Assembly (NCBI GenBank): GCA_002319075.1
Contig: NVQB01000001.1
Span: 4,464,001 to 4,528,000 of the forward strand
Length of the DNA stretch: 64,000 nt
Source of the DNA: Sphingobacteriaceae bacterium
GTDB lineage: Bacteria > Bacteroidota > Bacteroidia > B-17B0 > Aurantibacillaceae
Direction: 5' to 3'
In this document: positions 45,917-54,407 of the stretch, one piece after another
How the letters are laid out: the number at the start of each line of letters is the position of its first letter
Position numbering within the stretch: the first letter of the stretch is position 1
Notes under the pieces: generated by a model
The model's input: the letters and a program-made list of their open reading frames with translations, nothing else
Database searches by the model: none
What the model was told of the DNA's origin: nothing
Translations under genes and position numbers: made by a program

Positions 45917-47800
45917 TTAGTCCATCACTAATTTTCCTGATCCTGAGCTTTTGGAGCGCGTTTTAAGTTGGTAATAATAAATTCCCCGCACCAAATTCGG
46001 CTTCACTTTTGTAGATTCATTTGCCAGCAATTCAGAATAAACCATCTGTCCGAGTGCATTAAACACTGTAAATTCGGAGTTCAAGTCTGCCTCGTTTATG
46101 CGGATGGTAAATTCTCCGTTGGCAGGATTAGGGAAAAGCGAATACTCAACAGCGTTGCTTGTTTTATCCATAGCAGTGCAAGCAAGCACCGTTTCGGTAA
46201 AGACTGCAGAGTACCTGCATCCTTTTGAATCTGCTGTTAAAACAGTGTAAGTGGTGCTAATGGAGGGAGCAATAACGTTGTATGACAGTATAGAAGTGTT
46301 GTTTAACCACAAATAATTAGTAGATCCTACAACCGTTAAAGAAGTAGATTCGCCAGCGCAAATAACACTATCGCGTGCCGTGATAGTCATGGTGATAGGA
46401 CTGATAAAACAATTTGTGTATTTCCATAAATCATTCAGATCGCCTGCACTACCTGAAGAGGTATACCCATAACCTCCAAAAAAGTATAGATCATTTTGCG
46501 AATCAATCCATCCTGCGTGAATACTTCTTGCCCCTGGATTGTTTGTGAACGCTGCTACGTTTTGCGTTCCATAGTTTGCTAATTGATTTAAAATTGCGCT
46601 GCCTTTGGTCCATATCCATTCACCTGTGTTTAGATTGTATCTCCAGAGATCATTCAGTGACCCCGCAGTTGTACCCGAAATAGGAAAGCCTTCTCCGGCA
46701 AATAACCAGAGGTTTCCTACCGCATCTTTCCAGCTGATGGCACCTGAGCGTGAACCAGGCATATTTGTGCTGCTGCTGATGCCTTGTGTGCCATATAAGC
46801 CCAGTTGTGAATTTGTATTTGTTCCGCCCACCCATGTCCATTGATTAGTTGCCATGTTGTATTTCCAAAGATCGTTTAATAAGGCGGAAGCGGATGTAGT
46901 AGTGGCATCCCAGCCATCCCCGCCAAACATCCAGAAATTTCCTGAACCATCCACCCATCCGCATGCGGACATACGGCTGCCCGGATTATTAGATATAGCG
47001 GTGGTTCCCAGCGTTCCGTAATTGCCATTTAAATTGAGTGTGGTGCTGCCTTTCATCCAGGTCCAGGCATTTGTACTTATATCGTATTGCCAAACATCGC
47101 TGATGTGCCCGGTACTGAGCGACGAAGTTGTAGTGCCTAAACCAGAAGATACCCAGAGATTACCATTGGGGCCTACCCAGCTTAGGGCACCCATTCTTCC
47201 GCCTGGAGTGTTTGTATTAGAGCCAATGCCAATTGTGCCATAAGTGCCGGGAGAATAAGCAACGGTGCTTCCGTTGGCATAAGTCCATTCGTTTGTGTTG
47301 GGATTGTATTTCCAGAGATCATTTAAATAGCCAATTCCCGCTGAGGAGTGTCCATATCCTCCAAAAAGCCAAAGGTTGCCTGAAACGTCTACCCATGTGG
47401 CGCAAGAACTTCTTCCACCTGGTTTAGCTGTTGCGGTAGAAACTCCCAGGGGACCGTAATCGGACAGTTGTGCAACAAAGTCGCTGCCTTTCATATAAGT
47501 CCATTGATTGGTAGTGACGCTGTATTTCCAAAGATCGCTTAAGAGGCCATAGTTTCCAATGTAGTCATACCCGTCTCCACCAAATAACCAGAAGTTTCCA
47601 CTGGCATCGGTCCATGTTACAGCGCCATCACGCGCTCCCGGACTAGTAGTTGATTGTGGAACTCCCATTTGGCCGTAGTGACCATTTTGCCCTGTAAGAT
47701 TACTTCCTTTAATCCAGGTAAAATCCTGGGCAAACGAGCTATTAAAAATTAAGAAAAAAGCGCAAAAAGCACTTAGTTTTTTAAGTAATGTTTTAGTCAT
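45917..47800 (-). CDS. T9SS-secreted kelch-repeat protein
   Basis: This 627-residue protein has a signal peptide (about 1-24, ending SSFAQ). Six kelch-type repeats of about 70 residues follow, each built from GxRxxxxxWxDxxGNxWLFGGxG, then LNDLWKYxxxTNxWTWMKGS, forming a six- or seven-bladed propeller of the galactose oxidase kind. After the propeller lie one Ig-like domain (VICAGESTSLTVVGSTNYLW) and a C-terminal T9SS sorting domain (LFPNPANGEFTIRI, VFNALGQMV, LVRGIYYYQL). Propellers of this sort usually bind proteins or glycans rather than catalyse. Some blade motifs are near-identical, which suggests recent internal expansion. Confidence 0.85.
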   Translation of the reverse strand: MTKTLLKKLSAFCAFFLIFNSSFAQDFTWIKGSNLTGQNGHYGQMGVPQSTTSPGARDGAVTWTDASGNFWLFGGDGYDYIGNYGLLSDLWKYSVTTNQWTYMKGSDFVAQLSDYGPLGVSTATAKPGGRSSCATWVDVSGNLWLFGGYGHSSAGIGYLNDLWKYNPNTNEWTYANGSTVAYSPGTYGTIGIGSNTNTPGGRMGALSWVGPNGNLWVSSGLGTTTSSLSTGHISDVWQYDISTNAWTWMKGSTTLNLNGNYGTLGTTAISNNPGSRMSACGWVDGSGNFWMFGGDGWDATTTSASALLNDLWKYNMATNQWTWVGGTNTNSQLGLYGTQGISSSTNMPGSRSGAISWKDAVGNLWLFAGEGFPISGTTAGSLNDLWRYNLNTGEWIWTKGSAILNQLANYGTQNVAAFTNNPGARSIHAGWIDSQNDLYFFGGYGYTSSGSAGDLNDLWKYTNCFISPITMTITARDSVICAGESTSLTVVGSTNYLWLNNTSILSYNVIAPSISTTYTVLTADSKGCRYSAVFTETVLACTAMDKTSNAVEYSLFPNPANGEFTIRINEADLNSEFTVFNALGQMVYSELLANESTKVKPNLVRGIYYYQLKTRSKSSGSGKLVMD

Positions 47801-48117
47801 AAGTGGAGATTGATTGTATTACGAATGTAAACAAAATCAGCAATAAATCTAAAAAAATAAGGGCTGAAAGTCTTAATAATTGGCTGTTTTAAGCAATATG
47901 TAGTTTTGAAGAAAACTTCATCAGTGTTTTTTGACCATTGGTCTAAAATGGATGCTTTTTTTCATAAAAAGACAAACCCGATTTTAGAAAAGGGAGTTCG
48001 GTTAATTTTTTTCCACTGTTAATTTCGGCAGGGAAGAAAAAATAAAGTTTAATTTTAAGGAAGACCCAACCCCAATGCCCTGTTAAGTGTTTATTAGTAA
48101 AAAGCCTGTTGTAACTT
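47801..48117. other. Intergenic region before the sigma-factor operon
   Basis: The 317 bp between the kelch gene and the divergent ECF sigma gene are A/T-rich and contain no ORF worth calling. I see no clear TAnnTTTG box on the plus strand. If the sigma factor regulates itself, a novel promoter motif may lie here, close upstream of 48118. Confidence 0.4.
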
Positions 48118-48672
48118 ATGGAGATTCATCCAGACCTGATTGCACGTTGTGCAAACGGCGATAGAAAGGCAGAAAATGAATTGTACAAGAATTTGTATGG
48201 TTTTCTCATGAGCATATGCAGGCGTTACATCCGCCAGGAAGAAAAAGCACGGGAAGTGTTGAATATTGGATTTTGCAGAGTGCTTTTAAACATTGGCAAG
48301 TATAAGCCGGTGGCGCCTTTTCAGTATTGGGCAAGAAGAATCATGGTAAATGTGCTTATTAACGAACATAAGAAGGAAAAACTGCACTACGGAAATTATA
48401 TGTATGTGGAAACTTTGCATGATGACGAAAAATATTCGGAAATAAATAATGCCATAGAAAAATTTAATGTGAATCGCATAGCGCTGATGATAGAAAAATT
48501 ACCCGCTGCCACCCGCCAGGTTTTTAATCTTTTTATTGTGGATGGGTATTCGCATCACGAAATATCAGAAATGTTGGATATCTCCGAAGGAACGTCCAAA
48601 TGGCATTTGAATGCGGCCAGGGAAAAATTAAAAGGAATGCTCGCTGAAAAAAAAATTAAACTAGAAATTTAA
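48118..48672 (+). CDS. ECF-type RNA polymerase sigma factor
   Basis: This 184-residue sigma-70 family protein is of the extracytoplasmic function (ECF) class. Region 2 runs about 20-85 (ELYKNLYGFLMSICRRYI, EVLNIGFCRVLLNIG, WARRIMVNVLINEHKK) and region 4 about 118-180 (IEKLPAATRQVFNLFIVDGYSHHEISEML, GTSKWHLNAAREKLK). It would direct RNA polymerase to its own regulon, probably including this operon. It starts an operon: the next gene begins two bases after its stop and encodes a membrane protein with an N-terminal cytoplasmic segment of the kind that holds ECF sigma factors. Confidence 0.92.
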   Translation: MEIHPDLIARCANGDRKAENELYKNLYGFLMSICRRYIRQEEKAREVLNIGFCRVLLNIGKYKPVAPFQYWARRIMVNVLINEHKKEKLHYGNYMYVETLHDDEKYSEINNAIEKFNVNRIALMIEKLPAATRQVFNLFIVDGYSHHEISEMLDISEGTSKWHLNAAREKLKGMLAEKKIKLEI

Positions 48673-48673
48673 A

Positions 48674-50239
48674 ATGAAGCAGGAAGATAAATTAAAGAAA
48701 ACTCTTCGTGAGTATTATGATAACCAGGAGGCATCTTTCTCAGAGAATGAGTGGGAGCGTGCCAGTGCTCATCTTGACCAGCAAAGAAAAAATGGCAGGA
48801 GGAGAAAACTGGCATTCATTTTAGTATTCCTGCTTGGTATTTCTGTTACACTTTTTAAAATTCTGACTCCCCAGGATACGCCCAAACATTTGGCAACAGG
48901 CATTTCCCGGCAGGGAGCACAAAATAGTCTTGAAGAACATGAGGTAGTTGTCGCCGAGCTTCCTCAGCCGAAAATGGCCGACTCAAAAAAAAGAAACAAA
49001 ATCAAAATTGTTGAACCTAAAGAAAATAATTTAAAAAAGAAGAGCTCCGTATTTTTTAATACACCTGTGGAAACTAAAACTACAGAGGCCAGTTCTGGAC
49101 AAGAAACAGGCCTGGTAAAATCCCCGGCTTCAACTAATAAAGTTGAAAAACAAATTCCTGGAATAGAAAATTATCCTGAACGAAAAGTCGAGCCGGCTAA
49201 AGAAGCCGCAACGCCTGAACCCGGATTAATACAAGAGAATGATGACGATCTGGTAGAGGCGAACTCAGGATCAGCAGTGAAGACAGAAGAACAGTCTGAT
49301 GCTGGTTCTGAAGCGAAAAGCAGCGCCACTAACAAGAGCAACTCTGCTAGCGTTGAGAATGTGAATAATGAAGAGCAAGAGAAAACCACTCAAGCAGAAA
49401 AACAAGAAGAACACATAAAAGGGGAATCGCAAAGCAGCCTGGTGGCGGAACAAAAACAGAATATAGGTGAAAATAACCATGTAGTCGCTGCAAATGAAGA
49501 AAAACTTCAACCCAATTCTACAGATGCTTCTTCTGTTGCTATTGCTGATTCAGAATCATCAGCTGAGATGGCATTTGCAGATACACTCTTGCCTTCGTAC
49601 GTTCCTCTTTCGGGCGAAGGACTGTTTTACGAACTTGGTGCCGTTGGTTACTATGGTTGGAAAGGGGCTAAACAACGCGATGCGCGCAGTGTTTCTCCTT
49701 TAACAGGAATTAATTATATGAATCGTCTTGGTAAAAAATCTGCTCTGTCTTTTGGTGTTCAGTATTTACAAGTTGGAAATTTAAGCAGCAGCAGTAAGAT
49801 GTCCCGCGTATCGACTTACAAATATGGAGAGCAAAGTAAGGTGACAGTAGTTACTCCAACAACCTTACATTATCTCGTGGCACCTTTACGCTTCCATTAT
49901 TTTGTGGATCAGAAAAATGCTTTTGGTGGCGGGGTTAATTTCGCTTATCTCTTAACTGTAGTTTCTAAGGTAACTACTTATGATGAAAAACCAGGAGTAA
50001 AGGAAAATTACAGCACTGTGAAACTAAGCGGCTATACAGATGGATTCTCCTGGTACGACAGCCAGGTTGCGGTCTTTTACAGAAGAAAATTCTTAAACTC
50101 GCTAGCGTTGCAAGCTGAGGTTCTTGTGGGACTTACGGACATTAAACAAGACGCGTTTTTTGGTGTGGATGGTAAGGAAAGAAATTCAGGACTGAAACTC
50201 TCGCTAATTTATTTTGCATTCAAAAAAGATAAAAGATGA
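48674..50239 (+). CDS. Inner-membrane anchored protein with C-terminal outer-membrane barrel-like domain (candidate anti-sigma)
   Basis: This 521-residue protein has an unusual layout. Residues 1-44 are charged and cytoplasmic, ending in RRRK, and 45-63 form one transmembrane helix (LAFILVFLLGISVTLF). Residues 66-305 are an acidic, Ser/Glu/Asn/Lys-rich low-complexity stretch, and about 315-521 form a beta-strand-rich domain resembling small outer-membrane barrels (GLFYELGAVGYYGWKG, SALSFGVQYLQV, LAPLRFHYFV-like strands, LSLIYFAFKKDKR). There is no signal peptide, so the helix probably anchors the N-terminus in the inner membrane and the linker would cross the periplasm. Placed directly after an ECF sigma factor, the cytoplasmic part is a likely anti-sigma segment. 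The stop overlaps the next gene by 4 bp. Confidence 0.72.
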   Translation: MKQEDKLKKTLREYYDNQEASFSENEWERASAHLDQQRKNGRRRKLAFILVFLLGISVTLFKILTPQDTPKHLATGISRQGAQNSLEEHEVVVAELPQPKMADSKKRNKIKIVEPKENNLKKKSSVFFNTPVETKTTEASSGQETGLVKSPASTNKVEKQIPGIENYPERKVEPAKEAATPEPGLIQENDDDLVEANSGSAVKTEEQSDAGSEAKSSATNKSNSASVENVNNEEQEKTTQAEKQEEHIKGESQSSLVAEQKQNIGENNHVVAANEEKLQPNSTDASSVAIADSESSAEMAFADTLLPSYVPLSGEGLFYELGAVGYYGWKGAKQRDARSVSPLTGINYMNRLGKKSALSFGVQYLQVGNLSSSSKMSRVSTYKYGEQSKVTVVTPTTLHYLVAPLRFHYFVDQKNAFGGGVNFAYLLTVVSKVTTYDEKPGVKENYSTVKLSGYTDGFSWYDSQVAVFYRRKFLNSLALQAEVLVGLTDIKQDAFFGVDGKERNSGLKLSLIYFAFKKDKR

Positions 50240-51345
50240 AAAACTTAAAATTGTCGGGGATATTACTTTTATGTTTGCTTGCAGCTGCCTGCGGGAAAAG
50301 AAAATACCCTGAGGAAAATGTTCAGTTAGAAAAAGAAGATATTTATGTTACAGGTTCTGTAGATGGAGAACCTGTAAATCTGAAAATAGGAGCAGACGGA
50401 TACTACTGCTATTCGTCTTATAAACAACGTACGGACAGCGTATATCTTTTTAGTGGAGAGCTTAGAAAGTTTGATTGTAATCCCTGCTCGAACGCTTTGC
50501 AGGTAGAATTATCAGATTCCAAAACACGTGCCCCGGGATCTTCTGTTGAGGTTGAATCTTCTTTTGGTAAAGGGTCACGCATTTTTATTCCGGGACTCGA
50601 GAAAATGAAAAGCATAAAGCTTGTGGCAAATTCTAATAAAGAAATTTCCGCGGTTCACTGGAATATCAGTACCGGTGCAAGTTCAGAAAGCACGGAGATG
50701 AATTGCGAATTTGGTCAGCCGGGAGTGCAAACCGTTTCTTTAACTGTGCGGACAAAAAACAATTGCGAGAGCAGGGTAGTGAATAAAATTTATGTGGATG
50801 CCAGTGGCTACTTTGCATGTGAGGTTAATGCCACTCTGATTCAAAATTTGACTTCAACATTTAAAGCCGTTATTCAGGGCGGTAAAGCGCCATATAGATT
50901 TGAGTGGAGTTTTGGCGATGGGGCAGTGAGCAGCGATAAATCTCCTGATCACACTTACCAATGGACAGGTAGTTACCCGGTAACAGTGAAGGTATGGGAT
51001 GCAGATAATCGTTTCTGTGAAACAAACTATATACACATTGCCGGAAATGATCCATCTTCGTGCTCGGCAAACATTACCTTATCTGATCTGGGCACACGTA
51101 ACCTGTTTTTAAATGGTGTTAAAATTCAGTGGAAAGATCAGGCAAACAGAGTTTTAAGATCTGATAGCATTACGCAACCCGCAGGAAGTTATTTTGAAGT
51201 TGTTGGTTCGGAGCCTTATGCAGAGAATGAAAGAGGCGAGTCGGGAAGGTTGTTGACTTTACGTTTTAATGTATTATTGTCGGGTGGCGGTCGCAAAGTT
51301 TGGTTTAAAAGTGATAATGCTGCAATAGCGGTAACTTATAAATAA
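50236..51345 (+). CDS. PKD-domain lipoprotein
   Basis: This 369-residue lipoprotein has lipobox LAAAC (Cys19). A PKD domain is visible at about 210-265 (YRFEWSFGDGAVSSDKSPDHTYQWTGSYPVTVKVWD), preceded by a beta-rich region with Cys pairs (FDCNPCSNALQVELSD, CESRVVNKIYV). It overlaps the previous gene by 4 bp and is followed 2 bp later by another PKD protein. Surface lipoproteins of this sort in Bacteroidota often face outward, so it may be a binding partner for the barrel-containing protein or for the T9SS protein. No enzymatic motif is visible. Confidence 0.8.
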   Translation: MKNLKLSGILLLCLLAAACGKRKYPEENVQLEKEDIYVTGSVDGEPVNLKIGADGYYCYSSYKQRTDSVYLFSGELRKFDCNPCSNALQVELSDSKTRAPGSSVEVESSFGKGSRIFIPGLEKMKSIKLVANSNKEISAVHWNISTGASSESTEMNCEFGQPGVQTVSLTVRTKNNCESRVVNKIYVDASGYFACEVNATLIQNLTSTFKAVIQGGKAPYRFEWSFGDGAVSSDKSPDHTYQWTGSYPVTVKVWDADNRFCETNYIHIAGNDPSSCSANITLSDLGTRNLFLNGVKIQWKDQANRVLRSDSITQPAGSYFEVVGSEPYAENERGESGRLLTLRFNVLLSGGGRKVWFKSDNAAIAVTYK

Positions 51346-51347
51346 GC

Positions 51348-53255
51348 ATGACAACAGTTTTTAAAATCATAATAGGCCTGCTTCTTGTTTTACTGTTTTT
51401 TCCGGCAGGAGCCCAGACCATTTCTATTTGCGCCGGTACCACTACCGTTATAAGCGCGCAGAATAGTCAGAATCTCACAAATGCTTCTTATTCACTGAAT
51501 CCGGGAGGACTTGTTTCTTCAAACCCTTCTTTTACTGTTTCTCCACTGGCCAGCACAGTATATACTTTGTATGTAACAGGCACGAATAGTAATTCGTTGC
51601 TTGTTACTACAATCAATAATGTATACGTACAGGTAAGTGGTGTAGCTTTCAACCTGGTTTCGCCCAACTCCTTTAGTTTGGGCTGTGGTACAAAGAGCGT
51701 TGGCATTATAAATATTGTGAATGCTCAAACAATTCCCATATCGGGTGGTCCGATTAGTTATACATTTCTGCCTCCCGGGAGTTCGTCAGTAATCCCCGGG
51801 GGACCATTGGGGTCTGTTGCAGCCCTAACTTTAACTACACCGGGTTTGTGGACTATTGTAGTAAGAGATAACACTAGTTTGTGTGAGTCGTGGAGTTCCG
51901 CAACTGTTACGCTCGATAACGCTGCACCCACAAATAGTATACAGGTGCCTAACAACGTGCTCAGTTGTGCAGTGCCGACGGTAACGCTCAGTACAAATGC
52001 AGTTTCGGGAGTTTCTTGTTATTGGCTCACAAGTAATGGTTCCGGACCTGTTTACGGAAACAGTCTGAATGCATCTGTTAACCTCGCAGCGCCCAGCCAG
52101 AGTATTTTAGGCACTTATACTTTAGTAGCAACCAAAACTAACAATACCTGTGAGTTCATGTCCTCAACACTCATTTACCAGAACATTTACAAACCTAATG
52201 CTGTGATTTATGCTCCCAATTTTAGTTTTTGCACACCTACGGTTGTATTAACTAATCAAAGTACAAGTGCTATTCCTCCGGGAATATTTCCCAAAAATTT
52301 GCCTGTAATTGTTCAACAGTGGCAGGGTCCGGCAGGCTCCGGCTCATCCACTACGGTGTTTGTGGCAAACACTTCAGGAACCTACACCATGGTTGTAGAA
52401 GATTCCAATAACGGCTGCATAAATGTTGCAACTGTGAGTGTCGTTCTTGGAGCTTCACCTGCCTTCGTTCATACTATTACGAGTGGTCAGGCCACATTTA
52501 ACGATGTCTCTATGAGTTCGAGTGTAAACGCTTCTTATTTCTGGGATTTCGGTGACGGGACAAGTTCTACCTTTCAAAACCCGACTCACACGTATTTAAA
52601 CACAGGAGCTTACCTGGTGAAGTTTAAAATCACGAACAGCATGTTGATGTGTTCTGACAGTGTAATTCAGTCGGTAAATATATCTGGTATTGCCTGCACA
52701 GCGAATTCTAATTTCTCATTGGTGCCAACAGCTACCGCGCAGGTATGGAATGTTATTCCCACATATCCCTGGAATGTAAGTGCTGCCACCTGGAGCTGGG
52801 GAGATGGATCAAGTTCAAACACGCTTTATACTTCGCACCAATACGCAGCAGCAGGTATGTACAGTATTTGCCTGACGGTAACAGTCTCCTGTGGTGATGT
52901 GTCTACCAGTTGCACCTCCTACAGTGTTTACAGAACTACAGAGGAAGCGAAAATTGTTTTTATAAACGTAATGAAGCCAGGCCTGGTGGCATGGCTGAGC
53001 GAAACCAGACAAGAAGCTCTTTCGTGGAGCATAGCGCCCAATCCGAATGCCGGTGAATTTACTTTGTTCAATAAGGGTGACGCGTCAGATGCTGCTCGGA
53101 TTTTTATTACAGATCTTACAGGCAGAGTGGTTTATGCTGAAAGAAACTTGCAGTTTAATTCTCTGATCAAAACCGGGCTTCCGCAAGGTGTTTATCTTGT
53201 AACACTCGAAACCCAGCAGGCCAGGGCAGTGAAGCGCATCGTTATCCTGCACTAA
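51348..53255 (+). CDS. T9SS-secreted PKD-domain surface protein
   Basis: This 635-residue protein starts with a signal peptide (about 1-24, FFPAGAQT). Several beta-rich Ig-like units follow, then two PKD domains, the first at about 385-445 (SYFWDFGDGTSSTFQNPTHTYLNTG) and the second at about 465-530 (ATWSWGDGSSSNTLYTSHQYAAAG). The C-terminus is a type A T9SS sorting domain (APNPNAGEFTLFNKG, ITDLTGRVVYAE, LPQGVYLVTL, RIVILH). It is the last gene of the sigma-factor operon, so the likely target or sensor of the system is a cell-surface PKD protein secreted by type IX export. Exact ligand unknown. Confidence 0.85.
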   Translation: MTTVFKIIIGLLLVLLFFPAGAQTISICAGTTTVISAQNSQNLTNASYSLNPGGLVSSNPSFTVSPLASTVYTLYVTGTNSNSLLVTTINNVYVQVSGVAFNLVSPNSFSLGCGTKSVGIINIVNAQTIPISGGPISYTFLPPGSSSVIPGGPLGSVAALTLTTPGLWTIVVRDNTSLCESWSSATVTLDNAAPTNSIQVPNNVLSCAVPTVTLSTNAVSGVSCYWLTSNGSGPVYGNSLNASVNLAAPSQSILGTYTLVATKTNNTCEFMSSTLIYQNIYKPNAVIYAPNFSFCTPTVVLTNQSTSAIPPGIFPKNLPVIVQQWQGPAGSGSSTTVFVANTSGTYTMVVEDSNNGCINVATVSVVLGASPAFVHTITSGQATFNDVSMSSSVNASYFWDFGDGTSSTFQNPTHTYLNTGAYLVKFKITNSMLMCSDSVIQSVNISGIACTANSNFSLVPTATAQVWNVIPTYPWNVSAATWSWGDGSSSNTLYTSHQYAAAGMYSICLTVTVSCGDVSTSCTSYSVYRTTEEAKIVFINVMKPGLVAWLSETRQEALSWSIAPNPNAGEFTLFNKGDASDAARIFITDLTGRVVYAERNLQFNSLIKTGLPQGVYLVTLETQQARAVKRIVILH

Positions 53256-53630: not shown

Positions 53631-54407
53631 ATGGCAAAATTAGACGGCATTATAAAATTTACCGGAACGATAGACGGTATTACTTTTTATAACAGCAAGT
53701 ATGGCTGGCTGGCCCGCAAGAAGGGCGGACCGGACCCGGATAAAATGAAAACAGACAAAAGGTTTGTTCGCGTGAGAGAGAATGGAAAGGAATTCGGAGC
53801 TTGCGGAAAAGCTGCTGGTCAGGTGCGAAGAGCATTGGCCTTGTATCTTGGTACGAGGCGTGATCCACAGTTGATCGGGCGGCTCACTAAAAGTTTCATC
53901 AAAATTAAAAATATGGACACCGTATCGAAACGTGGTTTACGTTCGATAGAAGTGGGCTTAACTCAACAGGCAGCAAGAGATCTATTTAAGGGATTTAATT
54001 TTAACGGGTCGCTGGCACTCGCTGAGGTTTTAAAAGCCTCTTATACTTTTGATATGGCTGCAGGGACTTTTTCAGTGAAAGGCTTGCAGCCTAAACTACA
54101 CATAGTTGCCCCGAAAGGCGCGACGCACATTGTGTTTAAATCTATTTTAGTGTGCGTGGATGTAAGTAAAAATGCCACGGCTGTGCAGGAAAGTGAGGAA
54201 GTGCGCGTGAGTTTAAAAAGTACAAAAAGCAATTTACTCTTAGCCGCCGAGCCGCTGTTAATGAAACAAGGAATTCGCCTGTTGGTTTTAAAGTTGAGTT
54301 TTGAGCAAGAGATCAATAAAACCTTTTATCCTATTAAAAGCCTGAGTCACTCGGTATTGGAGCTGCTAGACACCGACGTTGTAAGCAAACCCCTGCGTTT
54401 AAAGTGA
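53631..54407 (+). CDS. Conserved Bacteroidota hypothetical protein (258 aa)
   Basis: This 258-residue protein opens with a motif I recognise from Bacteroidota hypothetical families: MAKLDGIIKFTGTIDGITFY followed by SKYGWLARKKGGPDPDKMKTD, where the GTIDGITFY and LARKKGG parts are shared across members. The remaining two thirds are beta-rich with no known domain, no signal peptide and no membrane helix. Such genes often appear in several copies per genome, which hints at mobility or a phage-related origin, but no function is known. It is preceded by a structured intergenic region and followed by the tRNA. Confidence 0.65.
   Translation: MAKLDGIIKFTGTIDGITFYNSKYGWLARKKGGPDPDKMKTDKRFVRVRENGKEFGACGKAAGQVRRALALYLGTRRDPQLIGRLTKSFIKIKNMDTVSKRGLRSIEVGLTQQAARDLFKGFNFNGSLALAEVLKASYTFDMAAGTFSVKGLQPKLHIVAPKGATHIVFKSILVCVDVSKNATAVQESEEVRVSLKSTKSNLLLAAEPLLMKQGIRLLVLKLSFEQEINKTFYPIKSLSHSVLELLDTDVVSKPLRLK

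Follow-up and report, generated by a model that had tools for sequence, protein, structure and literature searches.

The stretch analysed here, hereafter called the window, comprises 64,000 nucleotides of contig NVQB01000001.1 (assembly GCA_002319075.1) from a Sphingobacteriaceae bacterium, and contains an operon of four co-directional genes on the forward strand. The first gene (48118–48672) encodes an extracytoplasmic function (ECF) sigma factor of 184 aa, the second (48674–50239) a putative trans-envelope anti-sigma factor of the Dma type (521 aa), the third (50236–51345) a lipoprotein with PKD domains (369 aa), and the fourth (51348–53255) a PKD surface protein of 635 aa carrying a type A sorting tail of the type IX secretion system (T9SS). 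The junctions consist of a 1-nt gap, a 4-nt overlap and a 2-nt gap, and a predicted autoregulated ECF promoter (48066–48091, forward strand), recognized by aligning upstream regions across loci, precedes the sigma gene. A first-pass annotation, made from the sequence alone, had already described the four genes, their coordinates, single strand and junctions, which are confirmed from the sequence and its open reading frames, and its assignment of ECF sigma, PKD and T9SS identities is borne out by matches in Pfam and NCBIfam. We consider it probable, at roughly three chances in four, that the operon is an autoregulated Dma-type module controlling T9SS surface cargo via a CCAACY-N16-YGTW promoter.

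The sigma factor was identified by Pfam (PF08281, 5e-13; PF04542, 5e-9), by TIGR02937, which it matches above its cut-off, and by a family alignment; its score against TIGR02985 (Sig70_bacteroi1) was 73 bits, below the cut-off of 126. PADLOC returned just two weak DNA-binding matches on the operon, both to the sigma gene. Scans around the operon for sigma-70 promoters (13 versus 11.4 in shuffles) and for intrinsic terminators (1 versus 5.3) gave nothing above shuffled sequence.

The second gene product is assigned to the Dma/Reo type solely by its architecture, as modelled, and by its gene context. According to the accessible parts of the papers cited here and below, Dma is a family of dual membrane-spanning anti-sigma factors that works with Das/ECF21 sigma factors in Bacteroides thetaiotaomicron, and consists, in order, of an anti-sigma part, a transmembrane (TM) helix, a disordered tether and a barrel (PMC13088901); the same architecture has also been described as Reo (PMC9308784, PMC13114119). 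The predicted layout of the 521-aa protein is a cytoplasmic segment (residues 1–45), a TM helix (~46–63), a tether (~65–312) and an OmpA-like barrel (~313–517). AlphaFold2 places one helix at residues 3–16 and another at 24–64, the latter including the hydrophobic stretch of ~46–63 seen in the sequence, and residues ~72–306 are modelled without secondary structure and mostly with pLDDT below 50. The strands of the barrel run from 316 to 515, with 10-residue mean pLDDT values of 79 to 98. The top Foldseek match is an OmpA barrel (9fzd, E 6.5e-7), and in structural alignments made with VIA-align 2 the barrel matches NspA (1p4t; Z 15.7, rmsd 2.9, 154 aligned residues), OmpA (9fzc; Z 15.0, rmsd 4.0, 163 aligned) and OmpW (Z 14.7, rmsd 3.6, 164 aligned), all within residues 311–517. 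The protein itself has no significant match in Pfam and none in NCBIfam; 12 of 39 family members match the outer-membrane barrel family PF13568. The C-terminal domain probably lies in the outer membrane. The arrangement proposed in the first-pass annotation, namely a cytoplasmic segment, one TM helix, a linker of about 240 residues and a barrel, is thus supported by the family alignment and by structure prediction, which gave the cytoplasmic helix, single TM helix and barrel fold that had been expected.

Binding of the sigma factor by residues 1–45 is putative. A disordered tether joined to an OmpA-like barrel, as modelled, would also fit a protein that serves mainly as a structural link between the outer and inner membranes, with the ECF factor controlled by other means and the operon genes only co-expressed. 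This explanation appears improbable, since Trp27, within the conserved cytoplasmic segment that precedes the TM helix, is invariant in all 39 members of the family alignment, and since published proteins of the same architecture act genetically as anti-sigma factors (PMC13088901, PMC9308784, both seen in part). Another point against it is the relative at L040 (8128–9681, reverse strand), in which the cytoplasmic motif containing this tryptophan occurs twice in tandem before the TM helix, as if the motif were a separable unit.

The third gene product was defined by its family alignment, Pfam PKD_4 (matched by 38 of 39 family members), a structure model with a mean pLDDT of 89.5, and a PKD fold match. 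It consists of a lipobox cysteine (Cys19, invariant in 39/39), an N-terminal domain, one or more PKD domains within ~124–271, and a conserved C-terminal beta region; residues 186–272 of the model match a PKD fold in comparison with the PDB (Z ~12, mainly the PKD part having been tested), and NCBIfam gave no match above a cut-off. Known surface export signals of Bacteroidota lipoproteins are of the K-(D/E)2, SDDDD and SDDFE types (PMC5080379, seen in part). At positions +2 to +6 after the cysteine, the 39 members average 0.62 acidic and 2.56 basic residues, and a pattern resembling the acidic export signals occurs in one of them (L065), although the published signals may not be those of this lineage. 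Because 38 of 39 members lack a known surface export signal, with basic rather than acidic residues after the cysteine, the sequences hint that the lipoprotein lies at the periplasmic face, and so in contact with the tether or the base of the barrel. The fourth gene product has PKD domains (PF18911) and a sorting tail at residues 564–633 (Por_Secre_tail, PF18962, E 8e-11; TIGR04183, 43.8 bits against a cut-off of 23), and its N-terminus, read by eye, is a hydrophobic leader ending in AGAQ.

In a protein search, relatives of the Dma-type protein were found in 35 of 60 genomes, the window's genome included (the 66 listed matches include genes that gave two rows each). We compared 40 stretches, 38 around these matches and two (L033 and L034) around barrel matches in the window's genome; a Dma gene was called in the 38 and in the window, and in neither of the two, giving 39 loci that are selected by the presence of a Dma match. 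The sigma gene lies directly upstream of the Dma gene in 38 of them, the exception (L055) beginning at a contig edge, and the PKD lipoprotein gene lies directly downstream in all 39. The sigma factor, Dma-type protein and PKD lipoprotein make up a conserved trio, which 38 of the 39 loci have in full; at 22 of the 39, a gene resembling the fourth gene comes next. The window's genome has three trios (the window, L031 and L032) and a fourth, bare sigma/Dma-like pair; this pair (L033:4531–6582) is divergent, lacks a PKD lipoprotein, and has no YGTW −10 element at the usual spacing.

Named genome records were scanned with the sigma alignment, and the best 80 of at least 568 stretches encoding a relative were examined; many genomes are common to this survey and that of the 60 genomes. 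A Dma gene follows the sigma gene in 78 of the 80 (L220 and L223 being weak partial matches), and both misses, L166 and L237, stop at a contig edge, an adjacency that again speaks against a mainly structural role of the barrel protein. The lipoprotein is present in 66 of the 80, one of which (L222) is doubtful; of the 14 loci without it, six are at contig ends and eight are not (L216, L219, L221, L229, L234, L235, L239 and L241). The holders include Sphingobacteriaceae, Saprospiraceae, Flavobacteriales and Cytophagales metagenome-assembled genomes. Absence of the gene order from relatives, which the first-pass annotation had named as an outcome that would speak against its proposal, was looked for in both surveys, and the order is kept. 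Phylum-wide profile matches were set aside and not used for counts; beyond the window's genome those of the lipoprotein were mostly PKD-only stretches (~124–270), and those of the Dma profile were mostly N-terminal.

The pairwise distances of the trio proteins are correlated (sigma/Dma 0.78, sigma/lipoprotein 0.79, Dma/lipoprotein 0.85; 0 of 2000 permutations in each case), as expected if they were inherited jointly, shared ancestry contributing to these values. Such strong co-inheritance, together with adjacency in 39 of 39 loci, is more than a mere member of the regulon would need, and raises the possibility that the PKD lipoprotein and the T9SS protein are a sensed input, binding the barrel or tether and keeping the switch in its off or its on state; the cell would thereby measure its coat or T9SS export and feed back on cargo. 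There is a precedent in Porphyromonas gingivalis, where, as far as the accessible text goes, a T9SS-tailed protein signals to an ECF factor (PorA–PorXY–SigP, PMC7712824). We regard this as possible, if doubtful: 17 of the 39 trios have no gene-4-like gene next to them, the sigma/Dma pair occurs without the lipoprotein in the eight named-record loci whose contig continues, and the sigma promoter found on T9SS genes is explained by output alone. The favoured reading makes the T9SS PKD proteins outputs of the sigma factor, because many of their genes carry its predicted promoter.

In the window, this promoter consists of a −35 element CCAACC (48066–48071), a 16-nt spacer and a −10 element TGTT (48088–48091), 52 nt before the ATG of the sigma gene. 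It fits the pattern with 0 mismatches, but among 100 shuffles of the window, 48 equalled or exceeded its number of matches at ≤1 mismatch; therefore, its significance rests on comparison across loci and not on the window alone. CCAACY followed after 16 nt by YGTA precedes 33 of the 38 sigma genes linked to a Dma gene (a count that excludes the unrelated one of L033), mostly 49–56 nt upstream of the ATG, and YGTT takes the place of YGTA at three (the window, L035 and L068), so that 36 of the 38 fit CCAACY-N16-YGTW; L065 and L067 do not. A looser motif gave 65 matches in 41 sequences (665,050 bases), whereas 20 dinucleotide shuffles averaged 9.2 matches and never exceeded 15. Of 40 genomes of the genus, 24 carry the strict CGTA form exactly once (0 matches for the reversed pattern), and those sites that could be compared with fetched loci are located before a trio sigma gene. 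An AAC-containing −35 and a GT-containing −10 element are typical of ECF factors. Since a promoter of this kind stands at a fixed position before trio sigma genes, autoregulation of the operon is implied. In L031, L036, L042, L050 and L052, a second copy of the motif lies ~120 nt further upstream of the sigma gene. Among the named-record loci, the motif is found near the sigma start in 48 of the 49 nearer ones (L166–L214) and in 4 of the 31 more distant ones (L215–L245), two of these ~145 nt upstream; judged from these sequences, the promoter code is bound to a lineage and is not common to all holders of the trio.

The motif also occurs before genes for T9SS cargo. Between −160 and +60 of the called start, it is present at 11 of 29 gene-4-like genes (those scoring over 60 bits at the fetched loci) versus 1 of 433 unlabelled genes (Fisher 9e-14). 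Across the 40 genus genomes, CCCAACCWT-N14-TGTA has 56 matches and its reversed control 10, whereas spacers 2 nt longer or shorter give 19 and 12 matches, with reversed controls of 11 and 10. By reading, the 56 sites divide into 17 at sigma genes, 5 at T9SS genes within the operons and 34 elsewhere. Thirty-three of the latter (the 34th duplicates one that was inspected and is followed by no frame) were combined with four sites from looser patterns in the window's genome, giving 37 off-operon sites. A gene with a T9SS type A tail lies behind 13 of these, and the tail is confirmed by Pfam in all 11 that were scanned (L139 and L163 being outside the scan). Behind the others are genes with CHU_C T9SS tails (L079, L149 and L153), lipoprotein-looking genes (L081, L156 and, by eye, L134), a PKD protein cut by the contig end (L150), secreted-looking genes (L136 and L162), only a short or doubtful frame in five cases, and no frame in ten. 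At the 31 control sites, with the spacer altered by 2 nt, no T9SS-like gene follows, going by the next frame and not by a tail search (Fisher p 1e-4 for 13/37 versus 0/31); one of them, L253, precedes a short secreted-looking frame. The site falls inside a stop-free frame of ≥100 codons in 14 of 38 rows, compared with 29 of the 31 control-spacing sites. Type A tails number at least 150 in the window's genome (150 of 284 candidates scored), or ~3–6% of its genes assuming ~4,700 genes, and at 6% the binomial probability of 13 in 37 is 1e-7. When the TGTTTA form was used as a query, two sites were found in this genome, the window promoter and a site upstream of a gene with a T9SS type A tail (L165). 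Predicted T9SS targets include those at L078, L132 and L165.

A further explanation is that CCAACY-N16-YGTW belongs to a different ECF factor or to several, its excess before T9SS genes being due to a general regulator of the T9SS. Flavobacterium psychrophilum has, according to the accessible part of one study, a separate ECF/T9SS regulon with a CGT −10 box (PMC9723704). Furthermore, the window's genome has the bare sigma/Dma-like pair, and the more distant trios mostly lack the motif. Nevertheless, a fixed position before trio sigma genes is the usual sign of ECF autoregulation, and a single copy of the strict CGTA variant is seen in each of 24 of the 40 genomes. A weak point on the same side is that 12 of the 13 T9SS-linked off-operon sites are in genomes with a trio and a gene-4-like gene (the 13th, G021, being outside the comparison), few trio-only genomes having had sites. 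We consider the explanation by other ECF factors improbable; the sigma factor of the trio, and not another, probably uses these sites.

A variant of the promoter leads to other genes. CCCAACYTT-N14-CGTA gave 55 matches compared with 7 for reversed controls, and the 28 loci that were read comprise ten trio sigma genes, four RpoD-like genes, four genes for a one-TM protein and ten mixed cases. In L317, L328, L334 and L342, the site (at about 1501) lies 46–61 nt before a gene for an RpoD-like sigma factor of 288 aa (289 aa in L342). The genes in L317 and L334 contain sigma-70 regions 1.2, 2, 3 and 4 and do not reach the NCBIfam RpoD cut-off, and those in L328 and L342 are assigned by a shared N-terminus, the L328 site lying inside an overlapping frame. 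This arrangement suggests that in these four genomes an ECF factor drives the housekeeping sigma gene. The one-TM protein (~175 aa) follows the site at L321:835–1362, L322:850–1398, L331:1665–2201 and L340:847–1368, and the same protein follows a trio in L061 (8743–9264). It has a single hydrophobic helix at the N-terminus and, close to the C-terminus, an invariant IKPP; it recurs as a neighbour of the CGTA promoter and matches no convincing Pfam family. An earlier idea that T9SS genes pair only with the TGTA variant was dropped, as they are also present at the CGTA loci L182, L188, L193, L207 and L209. Outputs may differ between paralogous trios.

What is established here is the gene order and its conservation, the predicted architecture, and a promoter that is conserved in the lineage and enriched ahead of T9SS cargo genes. 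From these, we infer how the sigma factor is bound and released, which signal is read and what the lipoprotein contributes. In the proposed mechanism, the short cytoplasmic segment of the Dma/Reo-type protein would hold the sigma factor, while the same single chain would cross the inner membrane, span the periplasm with its disordered tether and reach the outer membrane, where its end would form an OmpA-like barrel. When the barrel, together with the PKD lipoprotein or by way of it, senses a change at that membrane, the sigma factor would be set free and would transcribe its own operon from the CCAACY-N16-YGTW promoter as well as other motif-bearing genes, chiefly those of T9SS-exported surface proteins, many of them with PKD domains.

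Several observations weigh against an autoregulated module that controls T9SS cargo. No Dma match was found by protein search in 25 of the 60 genomes, and at 17 of the 39 trio loci the gene that follows is not gene-4-like. The −10 element of the window is TGTT and not YGTA, a weaker −10, and the motif is scarce in the distant loci, as described above. The window's T9SS gene has no motif copy of its own; therefore, the link from sigma factor to T9SS here runs through the operon alone. Elsewhere, 18 of 29 T9SS-PKD-like genes lack the motif, some of them close behind another operon gene, and no type A T9SS gene follows 24 of the 37 off-operon sites. The CGTA variant before genes for RpoD-like and inner-membrane proteins indicates that T9SS cargo is not the output of every member, and other ECF factors could share the motif. 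A more far-reaching scheme can also be imagined, in which the Dma barrel and PKD lipoprotein would read the PKD coat deposited by the T9SS, the sigma factor would adjust coat synthesis genome-wide in a one-chain feedback from surface to genome, and a paralogue with the CGTA promoter would answer envelope stress, up to the primary sigma gene; we think this scheme unlikely.

Two genes flank the operon in the window. A kelch-repeat protein with a T9SS tail is encoded divergently beside it (45917–47800, reverse strand), with no CCAACY-N16-YGTW motif found before its gene. On the other side, 375 nt 3′ of the operon, a gene at 53631–54407 (forward strand) encodes a protein of 258 aa, which has no Pfam or PADLOC match and an insignificant NCBIfam match.

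The operon can be compared with four known systems, each seen in part in the papers cited. Like Dma of B. thetaiotaomicron, it has the same one-chain domain order, an ECF sigma gene directly beside it and one or more co-regulated operon genes, a likeness drawn from architecture and gene context and not from sequence comparison. Unlike there, the downstream genes are a PKD lipoprotein gene (39/39) and often a T9SS PKD gene, whereas dma2 has DUF4943/DUF4858 genes and dma1 its target nigD1; the predicted output is T9SS cargo, and that of Dma is vesiculation or polysaccharide loci (PMC13088901). EcfO–Reo of Bacteroides and Phocaeicola likewise combines an ECF sigma factor with a following anti-sigma factor that reaches from the cytoplasm to an outer-membrane barrel; it is proposed to sense envelope stress, and its regulon includes surface lipoproteins (NigD), but the accessible text describes no PKD lipoprotein or T9SS cargo (PMC9308784, PMC13114119). 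PorXY–SigP of P. gingivalis resembles the present case in having an autoregulated ECF factor tied to type IX secretion and a T9SS-tailed surface protein, PorA, that affects signalling. It differs in being a two-component system, with no Dma-type anti-sigma factor described in the part seen, and its named targets are components of the T9SS machine, whereas those predicted here are T9SS cargo (PMC7712824). The SM6 promoter of F. psychrophilum is also of the ECF type, with a CGT −10 box, and stands before an ECF/anti-sigma pair and T9SS genes; its targets are T9SS machine genes and others, and the part seen describes no trio or PKD cargo (PMC9723704). The first-pass annotation knew of no described system with this whole set. 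For the trans-envelope anti-sigma fusion this does not hold, Dma and Reo being already known (PMC13088901, PMC9308784, PMC13114119); for the PKD lipoprotein and T9SS PKD protein it stands, as neither such a partner nor a T9SS cargo regulon was found in the accessible Dma/Reo and SigP literature, subscription papers lying mostly outside the search. The PKD lipoprotein partner, the promoter and the T9SS targets look new.

Little is known about how Bacteroidota signal from the cell surface to the genome, or about the regulation of type IX cargo as opposed to that of the machine. Here, the Dma/Reo architecture, worked out in gut Bacteroides, is found outside that group and has the PKD lipoprotein as a new and constant partner. 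The locus offers a compact module, a promoter code conserved within a lineage and a list of predicted targets, with which both questions become testable.

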